Origin: Opitutales bacterium
Lineage (GTDB): Bacteria > Verrucomicrobiota > Verrucomicrobiia > Opitutales > Coraliomargaritaceae
NCBI GenBank assembly: GCA_030729385.1
Contig: JANQXM010000059.1
Span: 1 to 58,081 of the forward strand
Direction: 5' to 3'
Length of the DNA stretch: 58,081 nt
Shown here: positions 32,206 through 35,363 of the stretch, in pieces
How the letters are laid out: each line of letters begins with the position of its first letter
How positions within the stretch are numbered: the stretch's first letter is position 1
Notes under the pieces: generated by a model
Seen by the model: only the letters and a program-made list of their open reading frames with translations
Database searches by the model: none
What the model was told of the DNA's origin: nothing
Program-made: the position numbers and the translations under genes

Positions 32206-33198
32206 TTAAATCCTAGGCTTTAAAATGAGCACGCCGTCGTGGGCTTCGGCGATTTCGCGCATGATGTTGGCGAAGCGGCTGTTGCCTTGTGGGGCACCGA
32301 GCTGGAAGGGGCTGATCAAGGTGGGGAAGCCGACTGCACTGATCGAGACGGGGCGTTTGCCGCTTGCGGGGTCGCGCGGGTTGAGGCGGTCGAGCTTTAG
32401 AAGGAAGCTTTGGGTGGAGCCTTGGAAGTCGTCGCCGAGCACGTAGAGGCTCATGCTGTCGTTGGCATTTAGGCGGGGTTTTAGATCGCGGATCGCGGTG
32501 CGCACGCCTGCTTCGGGGTCGCTGTTACTGGGGAGCGGGTAGGGTAGGATGGCTTGCAGTGCTTGTTGGCGCAGACCGGGAGTGTCGGGCAGCCAAATGC
32601 CGGCGCGACCGCCGAGCATGTAGTTGCCGCTTGTATCTAGAAATTGAATACTGCGCACTTCGGGGAGGCTATCGAGCAGCTCGCGGATTTGTTCGATCAC
32701 GCCGTAGTGCAGCTGCTTCGTGAGTTGGTTGCGCATGCTGCCCGAGGTGTCGATGACGAAGGCGACGTGCGTGGCGTCGGCAGGCAGGCCGATAGGGGGG
32801 AGGTTCTCGTGCTTGAAACTTTGCAGTAGTCGATTGGCTTCGGCGGATGCTTGTTCACTGGTGCTGAGGTTGGCTTTGCGGCTGTCGTATTCTTGCTGGA
32901 GGTCGGCGAGTTTGGATTCCATCTCTTGAATCAGAGACAGGATACGTTCGCGCTCTTGGCTTGTTTCGGTGCTATTGATAGAAGCTTCAAGGAGCGCGGC
33001 TTTATTGGCGACGTCCGCTTCGAGCATGGCGAGTTGATCGCGCATGGCTTGGAGCGTGGGCACATCGACTTCACTTACCACGCCTGCTTTTCCTGAGCCA
33101 ATCGACAAGATGAAGAGCAACAGAATCGCTCCAAACCCACAGCAGAGGCAGTCAAGAAAGGAGAGGCTGAAAACCTCAATCGGGCGGCGTTTTATCAT
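32206..33198 (-). CDS. VWA-domain protein with MotB/ExbD-like membrane helix (first type)
   Basis: A 330-residue protein. The N-terminal helix carries an acidic residue: SLSFLDCLCCGFGAILLLF, with Asp16 and Cys17, 19 and 20. A coiled-coil linker follows (about 48-130, very rich in Glu, Leu and Gln). The VWA domain from about 143 has an intact MIDAS start DTSGS (150-154), so metal binding is likely. An Asp in a lone N-terminal helix is the ion-path mark of MotB, ExbD and TolR proteins. It is the third gene after the channel subunit and a sister VWA gene, with gaps of 64 and 76 bp, so an operon is likely. No peptidoglycan-binding OmpA domain is present. The exact function is unknown. Confidence 0.82.
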   Translation of the reverse strand: MIKRRPIEVFSLSFLDCLCCGFGAILLLFILSIGSGKAGVVSEVDVPTLQAMRDQLAMLEADVANKAALLEASINSTETSQERERILSLIQEMESKLADLQQEYDSRKANLSTSEQASAEANRLLQSFKHENLPPIGLPADATHVAFVIDTSGSMRNQLTKQLHYGVIEQIRELLDSLPEVRSIQFLDTSGNYMLGGRAGIWLPDTPGLRQQALQAILPYPLPSNSDPEAGVRTAIRDLKPRLNANDSMSLYVLGDDFQGSTQSFLLKLDRLNPRDPASGKRPVSISAVGFPTLISPFQLGAPQGNSRFANIMREIAEAHDGVLILKPRI

Positions 33199-33274
33199 GA
33201 GATAAATTTATAATGGCTAATGGATGATAGCTAAATAATTTGTCATTAGGAATTGGTGGTCAGTAATTGCCTCG

Positions 33275-34288
33275 TTAGAGGCTGGGCCAATCGTTGTCGG
33301 GGATGAGAGTGATGCCGTTGGTGCGGCCGCTGAGTTGCCAGAAGAGGCCGGCGGCGGAGGGGTCGCCTTCAAAGGGGAAGAGGATGGCGTTGAAGGGATA
33401 GTTTGGTCGGGTCGCCATGGCGTTGTTAAAGAGGCGCACGCGGTCGGCTTCGGAGAGCAGACTATTGCTTGGCGCGGGGGCGGTGGGTAGTCCGTCGCCG
33501 ATAAGGAGTAGACTGCTGGGGCGTTCTTTGAGCTGACCGATTTGCTGGAGGGCGTTGGAGAGGTTCGCGCCGCCTTTGGCTTCGAGTTTATCGAGGCGTT
33601 CTAAAAAACTGAGAAGTGCGGCGTTGTTATAGGGGTCAATGTAAGGCGCGCTTTGGTTGCCGCTGAGCGGGGTGGCCGTCTCGTTCATTTGGTAGATGGC
33701 GACGAGGGTGCCTTTTGGGATGGCGGCGAGCACAGCGCGGACCGCAGCTTTGGCGCGAATCCATTTTTCTGATTTTTGACCGGTGCCTGCTTGTATGACG
33801 GCAATGGCAGACTTGGCATTTTCGCCGAGCATACTGCCTGAGTTTTCCAGTAGAATGACCGCGCGTGGTGCGCGCAGTTGGAGACCGGAGAGATAACTTT
33901 GGTCGGCAGAGGGGCGGTCGAGCGCGGCGGGCTGCTCGGTGGGGGTGGTTTCGGTTTTGAGTGAGGCCAAGGCTTCGGCTTGTTCTTCGATGGCTTTGGC
34001 GAGTCGCTCTTGTTCTGCGGCTAGTTGCGCGACACTGGTTGCATTGGTGTCTGGCTGAGGGTCGAGCGCGGAAATGTCTTTATCGAGCGCCTTTTGCTTC
34101 GCTTCGGCTTCTTCGATTGCGACTTGCAGGGTGATCAGCGCCTCAGCCGATTGGCTCGCCTCGACATCGCTCATCGTGATTTGCTTCTTTGCGGTGAGGA
34201 TGAAGAGCAGCAGCACTGCGCCAAAGCCACAGCAGATGCAGTCCATAAAGGACAATGCAGAGCTTTGGGCTTCGCGACGTTTTTTCAT
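33275..34288 (-). CDS. VWA-domain protein with MotB/ExbD-like membrane helix (second type)
   Basis: A 337-residue sister of the next gene on the strand. It has the same 16-residue offset to the membrane Asp (Asp16 in ALSFMDCICCGFGAVLLLF) and the same Cys17, Cys19 and Cys20. The linker is another coiled coil (about 45-115, with many Ala, Glu and Lys). The VWA domain begins with ILLENSGSM, where the MIDAS Asp is replaced by Glu148 (E-N-S-G-S), so metal binding may be weak or absent. A later GDGLPTAP carries another Asp. The protein is otherwise full length. Two unequal paralogues next to a single channel gene suggest a mixed complex, which is inference. Confidence 0.82.
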   Translation of the reverse strand: MKKRREAQSSALSFMDCICCGFGAVLLLFILTAKKQITMSDVEASQSAEALITLQVAIEEAEAKQKALDKDISALDPQPDTNATSVAQLAAEQERLAKAIEEQAEALASLKTETTPTEQPAALDRPSADQSYLSGLQLRAPRAVILLENSGSMLGENAKSAIAVIQAGTGQKSEKWIRAKAAVRAVLAAIPKGTLVAIYQMNETATPLSGNQSAPYIDPYNNAALLSFLERLDKLEAKGGANLSNALQQIGQLKERPSSLLLIGDGLPTAPAPSNSLLSEADRVRLFNNAMATRPNYPFNAILFPFEGDPSAAGLFWQLSGRTNGITLIPDNDWPSL

Positions 34289-34352
34289 TATTTAATGATT
34301 AATAGCTAATCGGTAATAGCGAATGGGTAATAGCTAATGGCTAAGAGGGGCG

Positions 34353-35363
34353 CTAATCCTGGTGTTCTGCTGAGGGCTTCGCGCTCTTCTCGGATTCAAT
34401 ATTCGATGTTGGACGTTGAGCGTTCGACGTTCCCTCGGGTTCTTCGCCGTAAAGTTCATCAATCAATTGTTCGCGGCAGATTGGACGTTGAGCGTTTGCA
34501 GTTCCCTCGGGTTCTTCGCGGTCGTAGAGTTTGTCGATCAGTTGCTCGCGGCAAAAAGTTTGTAGGCGCAGGATGAGGCCTTCTTGTCCGCCTTGCAGGA
34601 GGTGGATCAAGAGCATGAGGATGATGCTGATAAAGAGGGCAACTAGGGTGGAGTTGAAGGCCACGCCGAGTGCACTGGTCACGCCGGAGATGTCGCCTTG
34701 AAGGGCTTCGTCGGCTCGTTGTAGGGCGACGCCGATACCGCGGACTGTGCCGATGAAGCCGATCGACGGCACGGCCCAGACGAGGTAGCGGAGCATGGAG
34801 AGCTCACTTTCCTGTTGTTCGGCGGCGACTTCGAGGCGCCCCATAATCGTTTCGGTGGCTTCGGGCACGCTACCAGTCATGTGGTAGCGTTCGAGTCCGC
34901 GGGCCATGATGTAGGGGAGGATCTTATTTTTAAGTTCGTGGGTTTTACTCTTTTCGTCGATCTCGTCGGCGAGGGTGCCTGCGCGTTCGCGGGTGATGCT
35001 ACGTGCGCCGTCGAGTAGTTCGACTTCGGGCGCAGAGGTGAGACCTTCGCTTTCCGGGGCGAAGCGCCCGAGTGTCTTGACCTCGTGATTGAGCAGGATG
35101 AATTTATAGACCAAAATCATGATGCCCCACAGGAAGAGCGAGAGGCAGATCTGTTGCTCGTAGTCTTTAAGGATCACGAAGATACTGGAAAATGACGTTC
35201 GGTCATCCACGCCGTAGGTGCTGGCGAGTGCGGCTTTATTGGCCCCGGGCCGAATTAGACCGCCGTAGATGACGCCGACAAAAATAAAAGAGGCAATCAA
35301 GCCGAGGGTGAATATCAGGCCTTTGACTGAGAAGAGGCCGCGTTCAGGATTTCGTAAGCTCAT
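34353..35363 (-). CDS. MotA/TolQ/ExbB proton channel family protein
   Basis: A 336-residue channel subunit with about four helices: 13-37, 72-90, about 192-213 and 236-258. The last two carry WAVPSIGFIGTVRGIG and FNSTLVALFISIILMLL, typical of ExbB/TolQ/MotA, where they line the ion path. A cytoplasmic region lies between (about 95-190). MotA/ExbB proteins form pentamers around two MotB/ExbD helices and turn ion flow into motion. Here the two following genes supply such helices fused to VWA domains. The last 66 residues are unusual: CREQLID plus a 24-residue block is repeated, and NAQRPTSNIES comes from an inserted dispersed repeat. The end may therefore be non-essential or newly acquired. Confidence 0.88.
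   Translation of the reverse strand: MSLRNPERGLFSVKGLIFTLGLIASFIFVGVIYGGLIRPGANKAALASTYGVDDRTSFSSIFVILKDYEQQICLSLFLWGIMILVYKFILLNHEVKTLGRFAPESEGLTSAPEVELLDGARSITRERAGTLADEIDEKSKTHELKNKILPYIMARGLERYHMTGSVPEATETIMGRLEVAAEQQESELSMLRYLVWAVPSIGFIGTVRGIGVALQRADEALQGDISGVTSALGVAFNSTLVALFISIILMLLIHLLQGGQEGLILRLQTFCREQLIDKLYDREEPEGTANAQRPICREQLIDELYGEEPEGTSNAQRPTSNIESEKSAKPSAEHQD
34396..34502. repeat. Dispersed GACGTTGAGCG-type repeat inside a coding 3' end
   Basis: Copies at 34396-34430 (ATTCAATATTCGATGTTGG then ACGTTGAGCG) and about 34484-34502 (TTGGACGTTGAGCG) lie within the channel gene. The piece TTCCCTCGGGTTCTTCGC at 34431 recurs at 34503, a period of 72 bp. Confidence 0.75.

Follow-up and report, generated by a model that had tools for sequence, protein, structure and literature searches.

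The window analysed here, a 58,081-nucleotide stretch of DNA, carries three consecutive open reading frames on the minus strand between positions 32206 and 35363. In order, they encode a channel (ring) subunit of the MotA/TolQ/ExbB family (336 aa; 34353-35363) and two proteins, VWA-A (337 aa; 33275-34288) and VWA-B (330 aa; 32206-33198), each with a single N-terminal membrane helix, a coiled coil and a VWA domain. The intergenic gaps measure 64 bp between channel and VWA-A and 76 bp between VWA-A and VWA-B. The original prediction had described a MotA/TolQ/ExbB gene with two VWA genes at just this spacing, and its reading frames, coordinates and distances were all borne out. A tandem 14-bp repeat, TAATAGCTAATGGG, occupies the first gap (34300-34344), and a similar run is found in the second.

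The channel protein matched Pfam MotA_ExbB (PF01618) above the curated cut-off (E 8.8e-15). Its hydropathy profile revealed hydrophobic segments at residues 9-40, 71-92 and 227-260, together with a conserved segment at 189-215. Searching solved structures with the single channel sequence returned no match and a family profile was required; this profile matched solved TolQ structures (E 7e-4) and aligned channel residues T206 (codon 34746-34748) and T239 (codon 34647-34649) with T145 and T178 of TolQ. Both threonines were invariant in 18/18 homologues. The channel therefore possesses, at the TolQ T145/T178 positions, the ring threonines expected of a 5:2 ion-driven rotary motor.

The end of the channel gene is unusual in its own right. 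The last ~60 residues (34353-34560) contain an imperfect duplication of ~72 bp (CREQLIDKLY...NAQRP / CREQLIDELY...NAQRP), a tail that channel homologues in relatives do not have. The duplication includes the DNA motif AACGCTCAACGTCCAA, which occurs seven times in the window against 0.6 copies expected when up to three mismatches are allowed. The 3' end of this gene has apparently been invaded by an intergenic repeat that is spreading.

VWA-A was recognised by the Pfam VWA_2 profile above its cut-off (E 4e-8), and VWA-B fell below it (E 1.1e-3; 20.1 vs 27 bits). Solved-structure searches with the VWA-A and VWA-B profiles gave mostly coiled-coil noise. Predicted structures were more informative. 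The AlphaFold2 model of VWA-A (pLDDT 79.7) matched VWA structures in Foldseek (E 5e-7). In the model of VWA-B (pLDDT 74.6), the VWA part was confident, with block means mostly of 86-95, and matched solved VWA/I-domains (E 1e-5). On the strength of this model, VWA-B is predicted to have a VWA fold despite its sub-cut-off Pfam score. The two proteins are also related to each other, the VWA-B profile matching VWA-A with an E value of 4e-39.

Both VWA chains carry the motif SF(M/L)DCxCCGFGAxLLLF, with an Asp at residue 16 (codons 34241-34243 in VWA-A and 33151-33153 in VWA-B) as the putative ion-carrying residue. When homologues from several phyla were counted with the motif pattern left free at this position, the Asp was invariant in 94/94 VWA-A and 96/96 VWA-B proteins, so the shared motif is not due to chance. 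Each chain has one hydrophobic segment followed by long helices of coiled-coil type. These results confirmed two elements of the original prediction, namely an Asp16-bearing N-terminal helix in both chains and its arrangement as a lone helix ahead of a coiled coil and a VWA domain. Since a net positive charge precedes the hydrophobic segment in nearly all homologues, the positive-inside rule would place the VWA-A and VWA-B heads in the periplasm.

Known axle-type domains and motifs were sought in both chains. Neither VWA-A nor VWA-B matched ExbD (PF02472) or OmpA in Pfam, and an SHLS-like motif was found in none of their homologues. Comparing the VWA-B profile with seven ExbD proteins of the same genome by hhalign gave a probability of 0.5%, for a match located away from the helix. 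Profile comparison thus gave no support for homology between the helix and ExbD; the helix is short, and its likeness to the ExbD helix lies in position and residue.

The two heads differ at the metal site (MIDAS). In VWA-B the site is intact (DTSGS; 32737-32751): its first Asp was kept in 96/96 homologues, 93 of which have DTSGS. In VWA-A the site is degenerate, reading ENSGS in the window (33833-33847). The first Asp of VWA-A was retained in 2/62 proteins from Verrucomicrobiota, the other 60 having E or R instead, and in 32/32 proteins from Pseudomonadota, Thermodesulfobacteriota, Myxococcota, Kiritimatiellota and one unplaced record. The heads are thus unequal in Verrucomicrobiota. This asymmetry does not go back to the original split between A and B but to a change among the VWA-A proteins. 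The original prediction of a ligand-binding VWA head consequently holds in part: metal-dependent binding fits VWA-B but not VWA-A, whose site is degenerate in Verrucomicrobiota.

The VWA-B profile, run against 84,980 species genomes, identified at least 544 stretches encoding a relative. The best 80 of these came from Opitutia, other Verrucomicrobiota, Kiritimatiellia, deltaproteobacterial metagenome-assembled genomes including Desulfobacterota, and Gammaproteobacteria (mostly Halieaceae). No match to the family was found in 50,697 phage and 72,556 plasmid records. Within a sample of Verrucomicrobiota, 22 of 387 genomes had the family and all 22 contained one B-type and one A-type match, which in one genome (G268) lay on separate contigs. 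In the sample of the window's own family, the motor was absent from four members of 1.3-1.7 Mb (G010, G065, G079 and G100) and present at 2.0 Mb and above, a pattern we read as loss with genome reduction.

The original prediction would have been refuted by homologues occurring mostly with a single VWA gene or without the channel gene. Instead, among 97 VWA-B loci, VWA-A was present at all 90 with enough upstream DNA to judge, and the channel gene at 77 of the 79 that extend far enough to assess it. Close relatives and duplicate loci (L040/L049, L044/L051) are among those counted, so the counts do not represent independent events. The two loci lacking an adjoining channel gene (L096 in genome G492, L037 in genome G008) belong to genomes that encode a family channel elsewhere. 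No ExbD gene accompanied the operon, the 99 neighbourhoods yielding one ExbD match (at L050). Besides the one in the window, this genome has seven MotA/ExbB genes; its eight ExbD genes all lie on contigs other than that of the window. Every other ring gene has an ExbD gene nearby on its contig, making the window's the only MotA/ExbB locus of this genome without one.

Unequal ring-motor gene sets are common in this genome (G000). Two ExbB-type genes occur with one ExbD gene on contigs C65 and C53, one ExbB gene with two ExbD genes on C46, and two ExbD genes alone on C42.

A tree built from 93 A and 93 B proteins separated the two types by a single branch with support of 100; the tree, made by a quick method, is unrooted and its support is SH-aLRT only. 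Distance matrices of A and B agreed closely (r 0.96), as did those of each with the channel (0.93 and 0.95); in 1000 permutations the correlation never exceeded 0.10. The single branch and the congruent distances indicate a single origin of the pair, predating the separation of these lineages or their exchange of the operon, and its inheritance together with the channel. Judged from their sequences, VWA-A and VWA-B are thus the products of one ancient duplication, split from one gene. The congruence of the three trees fits one joint complex; plain operon inheritance gives the same pattern, so that contact between the chains is not proven by it. The lengths of the A and B linkers were also correlated (r 0.90), an observation we set aside because it follows large clades.

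The neighbours of the operon in relatives provide candidates for its switch and load. Between channel and VWA-A, 70 of the 79 informative loci encode a protein of ~400-510 residues. Its profile matched Hsp70 nucleotide-binding domains (E 5e-9), with FHA domains lower in the list, and three members of this neighbour family scored above the Pfam cut-off for FHA. The gene was found in 0/19 genomes of the window's family, its own genome included; it has been lost there and kept in most lineages. This Hsp70-like neighbour is cytoplasmic.

Other neighbours vary with lineage. In Opitutia, divergent genes next to the channel encode a Gly-zipper lipoprotein and lipoproteins of the DUF4136 type, and M48 and TPR clusters lie downstream (17 loci each, one member of each confirmed with Pfam). 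Gammaproteobacterial loci have lipoprotein-like genes and an M48 protease gene after VWA-B, and lipoprotein, TPR and M48 genes are therefore found near the operon in two distant lineages. In Gammaproteobacteria, as in deltaproteobacterial metagenome-assembled genomes and the member from Kiritimatiellia, genes for a TPR protein and for a PEGA/FGE-sulfatase protein lie upstream of the channel. Two examples from proteobacterial relatives, placed just before the channel (L101:4471-6531 and L097:3903-5981), combine several PEGA domains with an FGE-sulfatase domain. The window itself has none of the relatives' lipoprotein, TPR or M48 genes next to its operon, and the Gly-zipper protein of the window's genome is encoded on another contig (C20), with 69% identity to a relative's copy. 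M48 and TPR proteins act in outer-membrane quality control, as in BepA, and for this reason we propose outer-membrane upkeep as a lead to the job that the motor may perform.

Other genes of the window were also noted. A complete mlaE-F-D-C-A lipid transport operon (38162-41547; MlaE, MlaD, MlaC and MlaA called by Pfam, the ATPase by sequence) lies 2.8 kb from the motor genes, and the neighbourhoods of relatives showed no linkage between the two. A 633-aa protein (7711-9612) matched both LptC and LptA/LptD-N profiles and is possibly an LptC-LptA fusion. At 12156-16276, a gene for a DUF3352 protein is directly followed by one for a 773-aa FG-GAP repeat protein (13955-16276).

The interpretation of the operon as a motor starts from what the sequences show directly: three conserved genes that occur as a set, the residues of the ion site and one split of A from B. 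We consider it very probable that VWA chains form the axle of such a motor, whether as an A+B pair or as two homodimers, and probable that it is an ion-driven rotary motor of the 5:2 class whose axles are one VWA-A and one VWA-B. In the proposed mechanism, five channel subunits would form a ring with the N-terminal helices of VWA-A and VWA-B occupying its pore. Asp16 of each axle would pick up and release ions opposite channel T206 and T239, and the resulting turning of the axle would pass through the coiled coil to the two periplasmic VWA heads. These could take hold of a partner in or close to the outer membrane; the likeliest candidate is a lipoprotein of the type encoded beside the operon in relatives. 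We infer ion flow, rotation, ring number and topology from homology to TolQR, ExbBD and MotAB. It is the pairing of the genes that suggests a meeting of VWA-A and VWA-B in the same complex, and the outer-membrane load is a guess drawn from the neighbours of relatives.

A fuller version of this model is tentative and, taken whole, rather doubtful. It holds that the axle is obligately 5:1:1; that the ancient duplication led to unequal heads, in Verrucomicrobiota one metal-binding and one not; that an Hsp70-like/FHA protein would act as a cytoplasmic switch in most lineages; and that the motor would power the quality control of outer-membrane proteins or lipoproteins, with TPR and M48 proteins as partners.

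The main rival to a mixed axle keeps the motor and divides its axles, one channel serving two homodimeric motors (channel5:A2 and channel5:B2) that have their own VWA targets and share one operon. Such an arrangement is in keeping with the unlike metal sites of the A and B heads, with the ExbB gene accompanied by two ExbD genes on C46 of the same genome, and with the AglRQS system, which also has one ring gene and two axle-type genes (PMC9389320). Independent motors could be lost separately, however, and B was never found without A, either at the 90 informative loci or in the 22 genomes of the phylum sample, all of which had both types; we regard this rival as unlikely. Less likely by far is that A and B are force transducers outside the ring, like TolA and TonB, with the axle supplied by an ExbD encoded elsewhere. 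The eight ExbD genes elsewhere in the genome would permit this, and the first vWA family described in PMC12204202 is proposed there to work in this manner. Against it, no A or B protein has an SHLS-like motif, the helix Asp is invariant throughout both sets of homologues, and ExbD is not encoded beside the operon.

The remaining alternative, that the operon is a Zorya-type anti-phage system, arises from a weak match of the channel to ZorA profiles (E 3.7e-5). This match stands alone: PADLOC found no ZorB homologue by the channel, neither A nor B matching, and we rejected membership in Zorya. The absence of the family from the phage and plasmid records searched, the congruent inheritance of all three genes and the stability of their envelope-gene neighbourhoods likewise argue against a defence role, which we hold to be extremely improbable. 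The mixed VWA-A/VWA-B motor thus stays our preferred reading.

Cells use ion-driven ring motors for motility, import, division and defence; the best-studied examples have axles of two identical chains. If a widespread motor has an obligatory unequal pair, it would show how a ring carries asymmetric output. Concrete candidates for the switch and the load of such a motor are found among its conserved neighbours, the Hsp70-like/FHA, lipoprotein, TPR and M48 proteins.

With TolQR and ExbBD the operon shares the channel family and the two ion-site threonines; unlike them, it has an additional N-terminal hydrophobic segment in the channel, an axle made of a coiled coil and a VWA head instead of the ExbD/TolR domain, and two different axle genes, with no TolA or TonB alongside. 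The OmpA-type peptidoglycan-binding domain of the MotAB stator is absent from VWA-A and VWA-B. ZorAB of Zorya resembles it in having a ring and a single-helix axle, but the operon has no ZorB match and no defence or mobile-element link in the collections searched. The original prediction had set the locus apart from MotAB, Tol, Ton and Zorya, and the lack of OmpA, of an adjoining ExbD gene, of SHLS and of a ZorB match in PADLOC sustains this distinction. GldLM/PorLM of type 9 secretion is likewise a proton-driven ring motor, and the FGE-sulfatase fold found in the operons of proteobacterial relatives, though not in the window, occurs also in GldK/GldJ; no GldL or GldM match was seen. The AglRQS gliding motor of Myxococcus has one ring gene and two axle-type genes, as here. 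To our knowledge AglQ and AglS lack a VWA head, and no gliding genes were recognised beside the present operon. Whether AglQ and AglS form homo- or heterodimers was stated to be unknown (PMC9389320).

The closest system is one already predicted. According to PMC12204202 (Mol Biol Evol, June 2025), "TPH-vWA" genes, mostly in heterologous pairs, lie beside TolQ-like genes without tolR/exbD in Proteobacteria and Verrucomicrobia, and a 5:2 AlphaFold3 model (Fig. 4c,d) has the conserved-Asp helix inside the pentamer with its Asp in the Thr ring. The same features recur here: a PF01618 gene adjoins the vWA genes (64 bp upstream in the window; 77/79 loci), the vWA pair is heterologous (90/90 informative loci; branch support 100), the helix carries the Asp, and SHLS and tolR/exbD/motB are lacking. 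The members used in that paper are from Idiomarina, and the gammaproteobacterial members recovered here come mostly from Halieaceae. As far as the paper's text describes the system, the core of the present locus shows no difference from it. The operon thus belongs to the TPH-vWA/TolQ motor kind predicted there, and the motor reading is not new. On this family, the text of PMC12204202 makes no mention of an Hsp70-like/FHA gene, of neighbouring lipoprotein, TPR and M48 genes, of unequal metal sites or of one common split between A and B. To a motor kind already predicted in print, our analysis thus adds evidence on pairing, ancestry and context, which makes the question of what the motor pulls on testable.
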